A DNA stretch of 44,749 nt from Cyanobium sp. NIES-981 (GTDB lineage Bacteria > Cyanobacteriota > Cyanobacteriia > PCC-6307 > Cyanobiaceae), in the NCBI GenBank assembly GCA_945896675.1, contig CAMDEM010000018.1, forward strand, positions 1 through 44,749, read 5' to 3'. A model generated the notes under the pieces. The model was given only the letters and a program-made list of their open reading frames with translations, was not told the origin of the DNA and made no database searches. Shown one piece after another: positions 38,277-44,326 of the stretch. Position numbers and translations under genes: made by a program. Each line of letters opens with the position of its first letter. The stretch's first letter is position 1.

Positions 38277-39608
38277 CTACGTGGCCACAACTTTTACCGT
38301 ATCAGCGATTTGGCCGGGCCATAGCGCCTGTTGACAGGCCAACCAGGCAGCCCGATCCCCATCGATCCGCTCCCCTGGAACCAGCAAGGGGATCCCCGGG
38401 GGGTAGGGGCAGAGCGGTTCGGCAGCAATCCGCCCCACCGCATCGGCCAGGGGCACACCGATGGCGGGCGAGCGCCAGGCCTGGCCAAGGGGCATCGCTG
38501 GCGTGGCCACCAAGGGCAAGGGGGGGGCACTGAAGGGCGGCAAGGGCCGGCCACCTAGGGCGCGGCGCAGGGCCAGCAAATGCCGAGGCAGGCGCCATTC
38601 CAGCCAGGCCGGGGGCTCCATGCCGAGGCAAAAGGTGAGGGTGCCCGGCTCAGGCAGCTCACCAATCACCCCCCGCTCCAGCAGCCAACCATCAGCATCG
38701 AGGCCATTGATGCCCATGGCGGCGGTGTGGAGCACCAGGCGCAGGGGGTCCTGGTTGGCCACCAGGGGCAATTGCTTTTGATGGCAACGCCTGCGCAGGC
38801 GCCCGGCGATGGCGAGGGCCCGGCGGCGTTGGCCCTGGCCACGGGCGCTGGTGGCGTGCCGTACGGAAGCGGCAGCCGATGCGAGCAACAAAGCGCTGGG
38901 GCTGGAGCTTTGCAGCCACAACAGGGCCCGCTCCATCGCCCCAGGATCCACCCTCTCGCCCTGAAGCAACACCAGGGCGCTTTGGGCCAAGCCACCACTG
39001 GATTTCTGGCACGACACCACCACCAGATCGGCACCGGCAGCAAGGGCTTCCCCCTGGCCATGGGCCTGATCCACCAGCACCTTGAGGCCCGCTTGATGGC
39101 CCAGGGCCACCAGAGCAGCCAAATCCCCCGCCAGGCCCTGGTAGCTCGGATCCACCAGCACCAGGCCCGCCAAGGGACCGGTCGCCTGGGCAGCGGCAAT
39201 CACCTGCGCCAGATGGGGCACAGGTGGCGGCAACCACAGGCCGGTAGCGGGGTCAAAGGGCAGATCAAACAGGACCGGCTCCAGGTCCCCCAGCAGACAG
39301 CCGTGCAGCAGGGAGCGATGCAGGTTGCGGGGCAGCAGCACCCGGCTACCCGGCTCTGCCATCGCCAGCAGGGAGGCCTGCAACAGGCCACTGGCCCCAT
39401 TCACCCCAAACCAACAGCGCTCCGCAGCCAACAGGTGCGCGCACTCCTTTTGCGCCTCGGCCACCCAGCCCGTGGGGATTAAGGGTCCGCCCACCTCAGG
39501 CAGCTCTGGCAGATCCCAGCGGGCCGGCACCTGCCGCAGAAGCCTGCGCAGCTCTGGGGCCAAGCCTCGCCCGCGGCCATGGGCCGGCAAATGCAGCCAC
39601 AGGCTCAT
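38277..39608 (-). CDS. Orn/Lys/Arg decarboxylase-like PLP protein
   Basis: This 443-residue fold-type I PLP protein belongs to the Orn/Lys/Arg decarboxylase major-domain group. It has VNGASGLLQASLLAMAEPGSRVLLPRNLHRS near residue 70, VLVDQAHGQGEALAAGADLVVVSCQKSSGGLAQSALVLL (Asp180 and His183 for PLP, Lys202 for the Schiff base) and a C-terminal YPPGIPLLVPGERI. Most relatives have His-Lys at the Schiff base; here it is Gln-Lys. ATG 39608 is chosen; the frame is open to 39629. Possible reactions are arginine, lysine or ornithine decarboxylation, which sequence alone does not decide. Confidence 0.82.
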   Translation of the reverse strand: MSLWLHLPAHGRGRGLAPELRRLLRQVPARWDLPELPEVGGPLIPTGWVAEAQKECAHLLAAERCWFGVNGASGLLQASLLAMAEPGSRVLLPRNLHRSLLHGCLLGDLEPVLFDLPFDPATGLWLPPPVPHLAQVIAAAQATGPLAGLVLVDPSYQGLAGDLAALVALGHQAGLKVLVDQAHGQGEALAAGADLVVVSCQKSSGGLAQSALVLLQGERVDPGAMERALLWLQSSSPSALLLASAAASVRHATSARGQGQRRRALAIAGRLRRRCHQKQLPLVANQDPLRLVLHTAAMGINGLDADGWLLERGVIGELPEPGTLTFCLGMEPPAWLEWRLPRHLLALRRALGGRPLPPFSAPPLPLVATPAMPLGQAWRSPAIGVPLADAVGRIAAEPLCPYPPGIPLLVPGERIDGDRAAWLACQQALWPGQIADTVKVVAT

Positions 39609-39687
39609 CGCCCCTTTGCCCCCACCCAATCCATGGATCCACCACAGGCGTTTCTAGAGTCTGCGCTCCCCGTCGGCGGCAGCAAGC

Positions 39688-41343
39688 GTGACCACCTATT
39701 CCCCAGGGCGGGATTTGCGTTGGTTACTGCTGCGGCCTTGGGTGCTGGTGGGCCGCCTGGTGGAGGTGCTTTGGCAACTGGGCAGCCTGGCTGTGGTGCT
39801 GGTGATCCAGGGCTCAAGCCCCAAACCAGAGGTCCAAAAGCGGCTCGCCCAGAAGATCCTGGCCACCCTCACGGGCCTGGGGCCCTGCTTCATCAAGGTG
39901 GGGCAATCCCTCTCCACCCGCCCCGATTTGGTGCGGCGCGACTGGCTGGACCAACTCACCCAACTGCAAGACAACCTGCCCCCCTTCCCCCACGCCATCG
40001 CCCTGGCCACGATCGAGCAGGAATTGGGAGGCCCCGCAGACCAACTGTTTGAGCATTTCCCTGGCCATCCGATGGCTGCAGCCAGCCTGGGCCAGGTTTA
40101 CAAGGCCCAACTCGCCGATGGCCATTGGGTGGCCGTCAAGGTGCAACGGCCCAATCTTCCCTATCTGCTGCGGCGCGACCTGGTGATCATCCGGCTGCTT
40201 GCCGTGGCGGCAGCACCGCTGTTGCCCTTGAACCTGGGCTTTGGCTTGGGCGACATCATCGATGAATTTGGCCGCAGCCTGTTTGCCGAAATCGACTACC
40301 GGCAAGAGGCCGACAATGCCGAACGCTTTGCCACTCTCTTTTCCCACCATCCCGAGGTCACCGTGCCCCGGGTGGAGAGGCTGCTCTCGGCGGAGCGGGT
40401 GCTGACCACCACCTGGATCAACGGGACCAAACTCCAGGAACGCCAGGTGCTCGAAGCCCGCCAGCTCGACCCCTCGGCCCTGATCCGCACTGGCGTGATT
40501 GCCGGGCTGCAGCAATTGCTGGAATTCGGCTATTTCCACGCCGATCCCCACCCCGGCAATCTGTTTGCCCTACCGGGCAAAAACGGGGCCCTGGGCCATG
40601 TGGCCTACGTGGACTTCGGCATGATGGATTCGATCAGTGATAGCGATCGGCTCACCCTTACCGGGGCCGTGGTGCACCTGATCAACCGCGACTTTCGCGC
40701 CCTGGCCAGGGATTTCGTTGGACTGGGCTTCCTTAATCCCAAAACCGACCTCGAACCAATCGTGCCCGCCTTGGAGGAGGTGCTTGGTGGTGCCATCGGC
40801 GAAAACGTGGGGGCCTTCAATTTCAAGGCGATCACCGACCGGTTCTCGGAGTTGATGTATGCCTATCCCTTCCGGGTGCCGGCGCGCTTTGCCCTCATCA
40901 TTCGCGCCGTGGTGAGCCAGGAGGGTCTGGCACTGCGATTGGATCCGGATTTCAAAATCGTCCAGGTGGCCTACCCCTATGTGGCCAAGCGCCTGTTGGC
41001 CGGCGATACCGCGGAGATGCGCGAAAAACTGCTGGAGGTGCTCTTTGACGGCGACGGCCGGCTCCAGATCGAGCGGCTCGAAAACCTGCTGGCCGTGGTG
41101 GAAAGCGAAGGCCCCAGCACCGATCTGTTGCCCGTCGCTGGTGCGGGCCTGAAGCTATTGCTGGGGCCTGGGGGCCGCAGCCTGCGCCAGCGGCTGTTGC
41201 TCACCCTGGTCCAAGACGATCGGCTCAACACGGACGACCTCAGGTCCCTGGCATCCCTACTGGGCCGAACCTTCGGACCGCGCCGGTTGACCGCCCTACT
41301 GGGGGAACGGCTGCTGACAAGGCTGAATCCCCTGGCTGCCTAG
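39688..41343 (+). CDS. ABC1/UbiB-family atypical kinase
   Basis: This protein-kinase-like ABC1 (AarF/UbiB/ADCK) protein has 551 residues with a GTG start. Signature parts are KVGQ (Lys70-Gln73 in CFIKVGQSLSTRPDLV), the Ala-rich loop AAASLGQVYKAQL, the lysine strand WVAVKVQRPN, the catalytic YFHADPHPGNLF and the metal-binding YVDFGMMD. An N-terminal hydrophobic stretch (about 18-40) may associate with the membrane, and C-terminal helices follow the kinase. In cyanobacteria and plastids the family is linked to prenylquinone and tocopherol metabolism and stress; the target here is unknown. The divergent gap 39609-39687 holds a possible TAGAGT -10 element at 39655-39660. Confidence 0.9.
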   Translation: MTTYSPGRDLRWLLLRPWVLVGRLVEVLWQLGSLAVVLVIQGSSPKPEVQKRLAQKILATLTGLGPCFIKVGQSLSTRPDLVRRDWLDQLTQLQDNLPPFPHAIALATIEQELGGPADQLFEHFPGHPMAAASLGQVYKAQLADGHWVAVKVQRPNLPYLLRRDLVIIRLLAVAAAPLLPLNLGFGLGDIIDEFGRSLFAEIDYRQEADNAERFATLFSHHPEVTVPRVERLLSAERVLTTTWINGTKLQERQVLEARQLDPSALIRTGVIAGLQQLLEFGYFHADPHPGNLFALPGKNGALGHVAYVDFGMMDSISDSDRLTLTGAVVHLINRDFRALARDFVGLGFLNPKTDLEPIVPALEEVLGGAIGENVGAFNFKAITDRFSELMYAYPFRVPARFALIIRAVVSQEGLALRLDPDFKIVQVAYPYVAKRLLAGDTAEMREKLLEVLFDGDGRLQIERLENLLAVVESEGPSTDLLPVAGAGLKLLLGPGGRSLRQRLLLTLVQDDRLNTDDLRSLASLLGRTFGPRRLTALLGERLLTRLNPLAA

Positions 41344-41377: not shown

Positions 41378-42613
41378 TCAGACGATGGCTGTCATGGGGA
41401 TGGTGAACCAGCAAAGGCCCACCGAGATAATGCCGACCACAACCACAACCAGGGGCCAGATGTCGTCGACCCTCTCCAGGCGGTTGATCTGCGTTTGGCG
41501 AGAAAGCTCATCGGGCAGTTGCTCCACCTCAGCCGATCGTTTGCCGATCCAGATCACCAGCACAAAGGCGACGAGGGTTAACAGATAGGCCACCACATAC
41601 ACCCGATCCAGAAAGGCCAGATAGGGCAGATCAGGGAGAGAAGAGCGATAGCTCTGCTGTAGGAAGACCAACGTGAGCAGGATTGTGACGGGAATCGTCG
41701 AGCGCACATCCTGAAGATCATTGCGCAACTTGGAGACCAACAACACCATTGCCATCACCACGGCAAGAGGCAGCAGCAAACGCCAAAAAGACGACCAGGC
41801 CGAAGCCCCGTAGCCCAGGTCAAAAATGACCTGGCTGTAGTCAGCTTCTGCACCGCCAAGGCCAAAGTTGGTGGCGTAGTGATGACGATATTCCGCCATG
41901 GACCATCCTTGGGTGAGAAAACCAGTGATGCCTGCATAGAGGCCCATGCCACTATCCTTCAATTCAGGCAACAGACGCAGATTTCCATAGTCAAGCCCAC
42001 CTTCAGGATCATTCGCTTCGAAGACCAGAGGGAGATTGACCTCCAGGAAAGGAAAGCGTCGGAAATCTACATTATCAATGTAGAACGAGCCCTGATAAGT
42101 AAACATCTGGTAGTAACGCCCACTAGGCAGCTTCAACGGCTTGACGCCCACAGGTTTCAACACCGAAGATGGATTTGAGTCCAGCACATTGATCGGCACA
42201 ATTAGCTGCTGAATGGGCAGATCCTGCTCCTCCAGATAACGTTGCATTTCTCCATCCCAATTCATCCACACATAACCGCTACTCACGTAACTGGGTATGC
42301 GCAAATCAACGCTGTAGTTGTTATTGGTATAAATACCTAAATAGACGTGAAATCTGGCTTCATCGAATTCCTTTTGGTCGGCCTCCATCTCCGCTGGCAT
42401 GAGCCGGTCGCCGCGCTCGCGAGAACCCGTTAGCAGGGATCCAGACCCGTCTTTGGTCGTCAGCGCCCGGGGAGTGGATGCCAACCTCAGGTTGTCCCGG
42501 GAACGGGTGCCATCGAGCTCGATGCCTGCAACACTGAACAGCGCCAGAACAAGCGCCAACAGCAAGGCCACAAGCACCAGGAGATTCCACCGGCGTTGCT
42601 TACGCTGAGCCAT
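41378..42613 (-). CDS. Pentameric ligand-gated ion channel (pLGIC)-like membrane protein
   Basis: This 411-residue protein has the architecture of a prokaryotic Cys-loop/Pro-loop channel. A hydrophobic signal or anchor (about 9-29) precedes an extracytoplasmic domain (about 40-270) and four helices: M1 272-294 with LLPLAV, M2 302-322, M3 334-356 and M4 385-407. Matches to GLIC (recalled, not computed) include VYLGIYTNNNYSVDL, VWMNWDG, the loop motif DFRRFPF (184-189), LPDLPYL after M2, and a proline-bearing M4. Aligning the LP of the M2-M3 loop places Asp302 at -2', Thr306 at 2', Thr310 at 6' and Leu313 at 9', which suggests a cation pore. The M3-M4 loop is short, as in bacterial channels. 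It diverges from a solute-binding protein gene 53 bp away. Part of the gene (about 41870-42360) looks AT-richer than its surroundings. Confidence 0.82.
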   Translation of the reverse strand: MAQRKQRRWNLLVLVALLLALVLALFSVAGIELDGTRSRDNLRLASTPRALTTKDGSGSLLTGSRERGDRLMPAEMEADQKEFDEARFHVYLGIYTNNNYSVDLRIPSYVSSGYVWMNWDGEMQRYLEEQDLPIQQLIVPINVLDSNPSSVLKPVGVKPLKLPSGRYYQMFTYQGSFYIDNVDFRRFPFLEVNLPLVFEANDPEGGLDYGNLRLLPELKDSGMGLYAGITGFLTQGWSMAEYRHHYATNFGLGGAEADYSQVIFDLGYGASAWSSFWRLLLPLAVVMAMVLLVSKLRNDLQDVRSTIPVTILLTLVFLQQSYRSSLPDLPYLAFLDRVYVVAYLLTLVAFVLVIWIGKRSAEVEQLPDELSRQTQINRLERVDDIWPLVVVVVGIISVGLCWFTIPMTAIV

Positions 42614-42666
42614 ACCAGTGACAACAACCTGGCCGCGACGCTAGGCCAGCCAGGAGATTTTCAGCC

Positions 42667-43797
42667 TTGTTTTTCCCAACCTCCTGCCTGCGCCTGGCTT
42701 TCGCCGCAATCACAGGCCTCGGACTGGGACTCGGAGCAGCAGCCTCGCCGATTCGGCTCGGGCAATCAGCCCCCCTCTCCGGGCGATCCGCCCAGCTGGG
42801 CCAGGAGTACCGCGCAGGTGCTCTGGCCTATTTCTCCCAGGTCAATCAGCGCGGCGGCATCAACGGCAAGACAATTGCTCTGATCACCCTTGACGACCGC
42901 TACGAGCCCAAGCTCACCTTGCGCAATACGCGAACTCTCCTGGAGCGCGACAAGGTCTTAGCTCTGTTCGGGTATGTGGGCACCCCCACGGTGCAGGCCG
43001 TGCTCCCCTTAGTCGATGCGCAGCGGATTCCCCTAATTGCGCCATTGAGCGGCGCCGAACTGCTGCGCTCCCCGCTCCGCCCAACGGTCTTCAACCTGCG
43101 CACCAGCTACCGGAGTGAACTACGCGAGAGCATCAAGGCCCTGGTGCGCGCGGGCCTCCGCAGGATCGGCGTGATCTACCAGCGGGATGCCTTCGGTCTG
43201 GATGGCCTGCGCGCCACCAAGGCAGCCCTGAAGGGCTACAACCTGGCCGCTGTGGCAGAGGTTTCCGTTAACCGGAACAGCCTGAACAACGAAGCTGCCG
43301 CCCGTGAGATGGTGGCAGCCAGCCCCAACGGATTGGTGCTGGTGACCACCTATGGCACCGCAGCCGACCTGATTCTTCGACTGAGGAAACTGGGCAACCA
43401 TGCCCCCGTGATGAGCGTCTCGTTCGTGGGCACCCAGGCCCTTCAAAACGCCCTGTCACCGCACCTGGCTAATGGCATCGGCATCAGCCAGGTGGTGCCA
43501 TTCCCATGGGATGGACGTCTACCAGTTGTGAGGGAATATCAGCAGGCGATGCGCCGCCAGAGCCAAAAGCCTCGCTATGGCTTCACCAGCCTGGAGGGTT
43601 TTTTAGCCGCCAAGCTCACGGTGGAGGCCCTGCGCAAAGCTGGTCCGGATCCCAGCCGCGAGCGGCTCGTTGCAGCCCTCGATTCGCTTCGCTCCATTGA
43701 TCTGGGCGGCTACCGAGTGTCCTTTTCCCCCCAGGACCACGAGGGCAGTGATTTTGTTGAGCTGACCTATCTCGGTACCCAGAGGTGGGAACCATGA
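42667..43797 (+). CDS. Type I periplasmic solute-binding protein (LivJ/ANF-receptor-like)
   Basis: This secreted binding protein has 376 residues. The start is TTG 42667: no ATG or GTG exists between the in-frame stop at 42619 and this codon, and AGGAG lies at 42652-42656, 10 nt before it. A signal peptide (CLRLAFAAITGLGLGLGAAAS) has no lipobox. The mature protein shows the two-lobe type I fold: IRLGQSAPLSGRSAQLGQEYRAG, VLALFGYVGTPTVQAVLPLVDAQRIPLIAPLSGAELL, VFNLRTSYRSELRESIKALV, RRIGVIYQRDAFGLDGL, LVLVTTYGTAADLI and a C-terminal LGGYRVSFSPQDHEGSDFVEL. No ABC permease or ATPase lies alongside; the neighbour is the divergent pLGIC-like gene. Ligands of the family are amino acids, amides or aromatic acids. 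Confidence 0.9.
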   Translation: MFFPTSCLRLAFAAITGLGLGLGAAASPIRLGQSAPLSGRSAQLGQEYRAGALAYFSQVNQRGGINGKTIALITLDDRYEPKLTLRNTRTLLERDKVLALFGYVGTPTVQAVLPLVDAQRIPLIAPLSGAELLRSPLRPTVFNLRTSYRSELRESIKALVRAGLRRIGVIYQRDAFGLDGLRATKAALKGYNLAAVAEVSVNRNSLNNEAAAREMVAASPNGLVLVTTYGTAADLILRLRKLGNHAPVMSVSFVGTQALQNALSPHLANGIGISQVVPFPWDGRLPVVREYQQAMRRQSQKPRYGFTSLEGFLAAKLTVEALRKAGPDPSRERLVAALDSLRSIDLGGYRVSFSPQDHEGSDFVELTYLGTQRWEP

Positions 43798-43861
43798 ACG
43801 CAAGGGAGCTGGCCTAGGGTCGCCCCATCGCGCCCTGGCGCACCACCCACTGAAGTTGCCC

Positions 43862-44326
43862 ATGGCCGCCCCGATCGATCTGCTGGATGCCGATCTCGAT
43901 GCGCTCAGCGGCTACTACGGCGACCTCGATGGCAGCGAAATCCTGCTTGAGTTCGCCCCCATCAGCCAGCCCCCCTATCTGGTGGCGGGGCTGGGCCTGG
44001 CCATCGCCATGCTCTGCGGCCTCACCTTCGCCAAGTTGGTGCAGCAACGGCTGGACGGCTGGAAACAGGACCGTCTGGCCCTGCTTCCCCTCGGCACGGC
44101 CGTGGTCACGATCCCCTACATGGGCGTGGTGCTGGGCATCACCCTGTTCATTGGCGGCGGCCTCCAGGTGTTTGGCTTCTCCGCCGGGGCTGCCCTGCTG
44201 GTGTCCTTTGTGTTGTCGGTCGGCACCGCCGGGGCCCTCTGGGTCCAGCTCGAACGCCTGATGGGCCAGGTGCAAGACGGCACCTTCAGCGCCGTCGACT
44301 TCGACAACTTCGATCAGTTTTTCTAG
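43862..44326 (+). CDS. Small three-helix membrane protein, conserved hypothetical
   Basis: This is a 154-residue protein from ATG 43862 (a TTG two codons earlier is less likely). An acidic N terminus (DLLDADLDALSGYYGDLDGSE) precedes three hydrophobic segments: about 35-60 (PYLVAGLGLAIAMLCGLTFAKL), 75-105 (GTAVVTIPYMGVVLGITLFIGGGLQVFGF) and 108-132 (AGAALLVSFVLSVGTAGALWVQL). The tail is acidic and Phe-rich (FSAVDFDNFDQFF). I recognise no named family. It follows the solute-binding protein by 64 nt on the same strand, so co-transcription is possible but not shown. Confidence 0.75.
   Translation: MAAPIDLLDADLDALSGYYGDLDGSEILLEFAPISQPPYLVAGLGLAIAMLCGLTFAKLVQQRLDGWKQDRLALLPLGTAVVTIPYMGVVLGITLFIGGGLQVFGFSAGAALLVSFVLSVGTAGALWVQLERLMGQVQDGTFSAVDFDNFDQFF

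Follow-up and report, generated by a model that had tools for sequence, protein, structure and literature searches.

In the 44,749-base stretch of Cyanobium sp. NIES-981 analysed here (the window, which is the complete contig C18 of a 1.97 Mb genome that is 88.5% complete), a gene for a channel subunit of the pentameric ligand-gated ion channel (pLGIC) type stands back to back with a gene for a type I solute-binding protein (SBP). Comparison of their sequences makes it somewhat more likely than not that the two products form a two-component ligand-gated ion channel, in which the solute-loaded SBP would dock on the pLGIC and gate it. The channel gene (41378..42613, minus strand, open reading frame (ORF) with ATG at 42613) encodes 411 residues and the SBP gene (42667..43797, plus strand, TTG start at 42667) encodes 376. 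The two ORFs leave the divergent gap of 53 bp (42614..42666) that was described in an initial annotation of this DNA. That annotation had read the pair as a periplasmic sensor, and its interpretation is partly supported here by the pLGIC homology, the lack of permease neighbours of the SBP, the adjacency and the correlated evolution of the two genes. As far as sequences were compared, none of the three observations that it named as refuting came up: solved pLGICs are matched by sequence profiles, the genes mostly stay adjacent in relatives, and the SBP has no PF02653 permease beside it. Four stronger points go beyond it: an SBP tail specific to the partner, the decay of a channel extension in channels that lack the SBP, a Bestrophin-like gene as the partner of sister SBPs, and SBPs of UrtA-like type with other pLGICs.

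The assignment of the channel to the GLIC/Cys-loop superfamily, already made in the annotation, is borne out at the sequence level over both the extracellular domain (ECD) and the transmembrane domain (TMD) of solved pLGICs. ELIC was matched across both domains by the window channel as a single sequence (phmmer, 5.7e-8) and by a profile of 19 channel sequences (3.4e-14, profile positions 84-362), and GLIC matched the same profile at about 1e-7 (positions 82-382). The Pfam check proposed for 41378-42613 failed, as Neur_chan_memb (PF02932) reached 13.8 bits on the window channel, below the curated gathering threshold of 28.1 bits; 14 of the 19 aligned channels match this family at E<=0.01 (best 2.6e-6), and the window protein is outside those 14. 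The Pro-loop, P188-F189, with its proline at the tip of the beta6-beta7 loop, is invariant across 26 aligned channels. The SBP matches Peripla_BP_6 over residues 28-361 (1.3e-55, 189.9 bits versus a cut-off of 31.7) and begins with a probable Sec signal peptide (42667..42744, plus strand; hydrophobic residues 7-25, putative cleavage site), in agreement with the secreted type I protein of the annotation. Its nearest PDB chains by sequence are 3lop (2.5e-59) and 4kv7 (9.3e-53), which place its ligand no more precisely than at the family level, and its named best relatives belong to Cyanobium, Synechococcus and other Synechococcaceae. The solute is probably amino-acid-like, because LivJ/HAAT-type relatives are annotated so. 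With regard to the claim that the SBP is an orphan, the permease part stood: no HAAT/Liv permease gene lies beside it, a search for PF02653 permeases, the component looked for, gave C12 and C33 as the sole contigs with matches and none on C18, and the C12 permease pair adjoins two SBP-like genes of its own. Since the genome is 88.5% complete, a permease partner elsewhere may have been missed.

The adjacency of the two genes is far above chance, with an SBP next door in 42 of 49 channels at an identity of at least 49% (among the matches listed) and with eight flanking contexts, so that the conservation that the annotation had proposed to survey was indeed found. The sample comprised 300 genomes of the window's family, searched with the channel and with the SBP separately, and gave channel matches in 100 genomes and SBP matches in 78, weak ones included. 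Among the matches listed, 69 channel matches were tabulated (the best ones down to 37% identity, partial ones included); 49 of them have an SBP within 250 bases, 44 in divergent and five in convergent orientation, and the divergent pairs leave 40-244 bp between the aligned parts. Two of the seven misses at the higher identity start at base 5 of their contig (G227:C155, G074:C168), and five are real (G047, G264, G169, G156, G032). The 37 distinct extractable pairs fall into eight groups by their flanking genes (short contigs could hide links), so the two genes persist or move together. Two divergent pairs each are present in three genomes (G106, G158, G214), and in L107 and L129, the two-pair loci examined, the channel and the SBP of one pair agree in their nearest relatives. 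Moreover, genome G183 appears to be a case of co-loss: it has no channel match among the matches listed, and a 78-residue SBP end, with LGSQRWEP still readable, remains behind the kinase gene at the same site. Genomes G264, G169, G156 and G032, which carry an SBP-less close channel, have no SBP match at all. In a wider search of the phylum with the channel, 34 of 386 genomes gave a match, and full-length matches of the SBP-linked type came only from the window's own family.

The evolutionary distances of channels and SBPs are correlated with r=0.94 over 37 pairs, a value reached by none of 5000 permutations, and the 32 divergent pairs alone gave r=0.90. One false pair was excluded, namely L115_2257, whose convergent SBP belongs to a truncated channel next to it; with it, 38 pairs gave r=0.83. 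For 18 loci with an ABC1-kinase neighbour, the channel-SBP correlation was 0.91 (partial correlation 0.85), versus 0.63 for channel and kinase and 0.60 for SBP and kinase. Clade structure inflates such numbers, but the gap to the kinase correlations is beyond what vertical descent alone would be expected to give. This correlated evolution of the sequences suggests a partnership of channel and SBP.

Two elements at the ends of the proteins are candidates for docking, as judged from their distribution. One of them is the C-terminal tail of the SBP, GTQRWEP in the window (43774..43794, plus strand). Its W-x-P ending is present in 39 of 39 distinct pLGIC-linked SBPs and in none of 62 other relatives, which comprise eight bestrophin-linked SBPs (including L100, L102 and L103), two chemoreceptor (MCP)-linked ones and 52 others, mostly proteobacterial by record title, with no pLGIC or PF14023 gene in their locus maps. 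The other is an N-terminal extension of the channel (residues 33-86; 42356..42517, minus strand) with the motif S-R-D/E-x-L-R-L-S/T-S; ahead of its first domain the channel has a hydrophobic stretch and some 50 residues of partial conservation, neither with an equivalent in solved ELIC chains. In the 32 divergent paired channels, the extension is preserved about as well as the remaining sequence: 81-100% of some 16 conserved sites are kept, at a leave-one-out ratio of at least 0.90. The extension is decayed in all five SBP-less close channels (7-10 of 15 sites, ratio 0.56-0.69), and eight channels of a decarboxylase-linked group keep 3-8 of 15 sites (ratio 0.31-0.77). Four SBP-less channels nested inside the paired clade keep 86-96% of the ECD sites and 93-100% of the TMD sites versus 53-67% of the extension (Fisher p 1.7e-5 to 1.1e-3). 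Provided that the pairing is ancestral, there would have been about three independent losses of the SBP.

In the reading that we prefer, the SBP would be exported to the periplasm and take up a small, probably amino-acid-like solute, and the closed, loaded SBP would dock atop the pentameric channel via its W-x-P tail and the N-terminal extension of the channel. Docking, and not free ligand, would then move the channel to the open state, cations would enter, and the supply of solute would be turned into a membrane-potential or ion signal. The sequences themselves show the two genes, their conserved linkage and correlated evolution, and elements specific to the partner; we infer the solute, the contact, the docking site, the gating direction, the cation selectivity and the downstream use. 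Such docking fits the anatomy of a sensor, namely an SBP without permease neighbours, a full-length receptor channel, co-varying ends and a related SBP in chemosensory operons. Several observations weigh against this reading. The five close channels of G047, G264, G169, G156 and G032 persist without an SBP, so there is no strict requirement for it. In more distant groups, a type I SBP is missing within 400 bp of 67 of 76 channel genes, and the L070 channel and the second channel of L044 also lack one. The window channel itself has one of the less well kept extensions of the paired group (13 of 16 sites, ratio 0.93). In the five convergent channels just 10-11 of 15 extension sites are kept, similar to the SBP-less channel of L043 (10 of 15), though their extension is better kept than the rest of the sequence (ratio 1.11-1.24 versus 0.69 for L043). 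In addition, the counts of 39 of 39 and 32 of 32 stand for few independent events, because the paired SBPs form one clade and the paired divergent channels nearly one.

A different function of the SBP was proposed by Tasneem et al. (2004; PMC549065): as a concentrator, it would raise the local solute and hand it over, and free ligand would gate the orthosteric site, as amines do in ELIC. This idea has the merit of prior publication and accords with the ELIC-type extracellular domain that the channel retains; amine ligands are plausible for it because a pyridoxal phosphate (PLP)-dependent decarboxylase stands in the operons of a related SBP-less channel group and a putative amino-acid decarboxylase in that of ELIC (PMC3119659). 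However, a pure concentrator needs neither a partner-specific tail nor a co-varying extension, and we consider it unlikely for this pair. Still more doubtful is SBP-dependent permeation, in which a channel of low selectivity would take up the SBP-delivered solute in place of an ABC permease. The lack of a PF02653 permease beside the SBP would suit it, as would the link of the same SBP family to Bestrophin-like genes; bestrophins reportedly conduct small organic anions. But the pore, by our numbering, shows the usual pLGIC pattern of T2', T6' and L9', and, by general reasoning, passive flow from a high-affinity SBP yields no accumulation.

The pair may also share no more than its regulation, as two independent nutrient-related genes around a compact divergent control region, with the SBP serving the HAAT-type transporter of C12. 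Divergent genes are often under common control, and a HAAT-type permease pair is present on C12. As for the control region, the annotation had spoken of a divergent promoter; the divergent geometry is as it described, but a promoter and terminator scan of 42450-42850 gave no match, including none to a sigma-70-type promoter, so it is the gene geometry that suggests a promoter here. Five of the pairs are convergent, the C12 transporter has two SBP-like genes beside it, and shared regulation does not account for the correlated evolution and the partner-specific elements or for the decayed extensions of the channels in G264, G169, G156 and G032, where any SBP match is missing. The weightiest evidence against this explanation comes from the convergent pairs and the decayed extension; we hold it to be about as improbable as permeation.

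Sister SBPs have another type of partner. The SBP rows away from pLGIC genes comprise 13 pieces at 12 places, one of which is the G183 remnant; at each of the 11 remaining places the SBP gene immediately precedes a Bestrophin-like gene (PF14023) of the same orientation. The assignment comes from Pfam on L080 and from four of four aligned named copies (E<=0.01), the other copies being tied to them by similarity; the scores were 61.3 and 59.3 versus a cut-off of 32 bits. The word channel for these proteins is taken from the Pfam name, and a search by sequence for a PDB chain of the PF14023 partner gave no match at E<=1. In the 300 genomes, the PF14023 protein has 11 matches, all at those SBP places. 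A profile of the Bestrophin-like family gave, in the 386 genomes, one full match (G106) and a 57-residue stretch with two stops (E 1.3e-4). Two of the 11 bestrophin-linked SBP copies are broken (G203, G278). In eight of the 11 loci, a PBP_like_2-type SBP gene follows the PF14023 gene (Pfam match for one copy from L080 and for its upstream homologue in L081). Pairs of an SBP gene followed by a Bestrophin-like gene were noted at L126, L128, L131, L134 and L080-L090.

In the SBP tree, a single clade (support 1.0) unites the 47 full-length SBPs from cyanobacteria, 39 of them pLGIC-linked and eight PF14023-linked. The pLGIC-linked ones make up a single clade (0.85), and the PF14023-linked ones are paraphyletic, with two basal and six in a sister position (0.86). 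In this tree, SBPs were labelled 'pLGIC' according to their tail, but adjacency had already assigned the same 39 beforehand. Because 11 of the 12 SBP loci elsewhere precede a PF14023 gene, it appears that a single SBP family works with two kinds of channel that are unrelated to each other, and the simplest history for this tree would be a switch from a bestrophin-like partner to a pLGIC with gain of the tail.

An SBP of another type accompanies other pLGICs. Behind each of eight pLGIC genes that are more distantly related (L099, L245, L249-L254) comes, in the same orientation, an UrtA-like gene of Peripla_BP_5 type (Pfam on L099), whose ORF overlaps the end of the pLGIC gene by 4-46 bp. These eight copies are the eight best among the listed matches in the 300 genomes, at an identity of at least 65%, versus at most 54% for ordinary urtA-like genes, and they carry a lipobox-like L-S-C or S-G-C. 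It is conceivable, though we put it forward tentatively and would not expect all of it to hold, that binding-protein-gated ion channels form a class. One SBP family would then be an exchangeable sensing subunit, first for bestrophin-like proteins and then for pLGICs, with a short tail gained at the switch, and other pLGICs would have independently recruited an UrtA paralogue as a lipoprotein co-receptor. Genome G106 also carries an urtA-like copy convergent with yet another pLGIC gene (L275:5563-6861 and L275:6851-8023); this copy is 84% identical to urtA of the urea locus of G195 and apparently has the start of ureG attached. Among 118 proteins scanned as neighbours of other pLGICs, no SBP was found in the 25 commonest of 122 families, and the commonest families were housekeeping ones.

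The idea of SBP-pLGIC sensing is not new, because it was proposed in 2004, and the suspicion in the annotation that channel genes near binding-protein genes had been noted before was right. Tasneem et al. (2004; PMC549065) describe fusions of type I periplasmic binding proteins (PBP-I) to Cys-loop homologues in Magnetospirillum and Bradyrhizobium and, for 'some bacteria', separate PBP-II genes close to those of ART-LGICs, and propose that fused or neighbouring PBPs concentrate or sense ligands and thereby control ion flux, steering motility. A pLGIC core with a periplasmic binding protein, and proposed ligand sensing with ion flux, are common to those cases and ours. In the text available, however, their type I PBP is fused and their stand-alone gene is PBP-II, although a Synechococcus case could be among the 'some bacteria'; the window pair consists of a channel with a stand-alone type I SBP, divergent or convergent in its relatives, co-varying, with a partner-specific tail and with sisters beside Bestrophin-like genes. 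In the full-text literature searched, mostly openly available and including passages of PMC4795631, PMC12664993, PMC9674596, PMC3119659 and PMC2950845, no account turned up of a type I SBP paired with a pLGIC in this way, of its bestrophin-like alternative, or of the tail and the extension. ELIC, the closest solved relative by sequence, is encoded in an operon with a putative amino-acid decarboxylase, which parallels the related SBP-less channel group; the portion of that paper available mentions no SBP partner (PMC3119659), and ELIC chains align only from profile position 84. DeCLIC is likewise a prokaryotic pLGIC with an N-terminal regulatory addition, but as far as the accessible text goes its calcium-binding N-terminal lobes are on its own chain, versus a separate SBP here, and the same text notes that AMPA and NMDA receptors carry PBP-type domains (PMC12664993).

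Control of an ion channel by periplasmic-binding-protein folds is known from ionotropic glutamate receptors (iGluR) of the NMDA type and from GluR0, but there the fold is covalently fused and the pore is tetrameric and K-channel-like. In the complex of maltose-binding protein with Tar (MBP-Tar), a loaded SBP docks on a membrane receptor, as we propose here, but the signal goes to CheA and no ions pass. To our knowledge, the cell role and native ligands of prokaryotic pLGICs are largely open, and a co-varying binding protein makes the question of the native ligand tractable.

Further features of the channel were located by hydropathy and alignment, all on the minus strand. A hydrophobic N-terminal segment (residues 6-36; 42506..42598) has a conserved W-N start and no obvious A-x-A site in the channel alignment, and is perhaps an uncleaved anchor. 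It is followed, beyond the extension, by the extracellular ligand-binding-type domain (residues 87-272; 41798..42355), placed by alignments and the ELIC profile match. Hydropathy detected the N-terminal segment, M1, M3 and M4; the pore helix M2 (residues 302-326; 41636..41710) stayed under the threshold yet aligns with M2 of ELIC. Counting back from L-P-x-L-P-Y would make D302 -2', R304 0', T310 6' and L313 9', with a further threonine at 2'. GLIC carries an acidic E at -2', and the window channel is likely cation-selective because its acidic ring at this position resembles that of GLIC. The window genome encodes one further pLGIC, a distant one (30% identity; G000:C5:3461-4405, L076), adjoining a hydroxyacylglutathione-hydrolase-type gene and a short gene that a pooled scan suggests is of L-PSP type.

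Around the pair, the window shows a gene string common to many relatives: an Orn/Lys/Arg-type decarboxylase (38277-39629), the ABC1 kinase (39688-41343), the pair itself and a small hydrophobic protein without clear family (43856-44326). A link to amine ligands through this decarboxylase was considered and rejected; because the gene is part of the conserved string, it was not counted as functional linkage.

The SBP-less related pLGIC group with a PLP-dependent decarboxylase in its operon was seen at L058-L062, L064 and L115. These loci also hold a membrane protein that we take to be Cache-like, by a resemblance without a Pfam match, and an MFS transporter; at L069, the contig includes just the MFS gene out of these neighbours. 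The decarboxylase of L060 scored 366 bits versus a cut-off of 305 for NCBIfam histidine decarboxylase, and its nearest PDB entry is a serine decarboxylase. Such an operon may possibly be both amine-making and amine-sensing. At L141:3427-8147, the first gene of a chemosensory operon encodes a relative of the SBP, and by Pfam the operon also codes for a methyl-accepting protein and a kinase of CheA type; L152 has homologous genes in the same order. A further pLGIC at L070:4197-5861 adjoins a Tll0287-like gene and a spermidine-synthase-type gene. Finally, locus L114, from a record titled as a metagenome-assembled genome (MAG) of Bifidobacterium breve, carries a cyanobacterial-type pair and is probably a mislabelled or contaminated bin.

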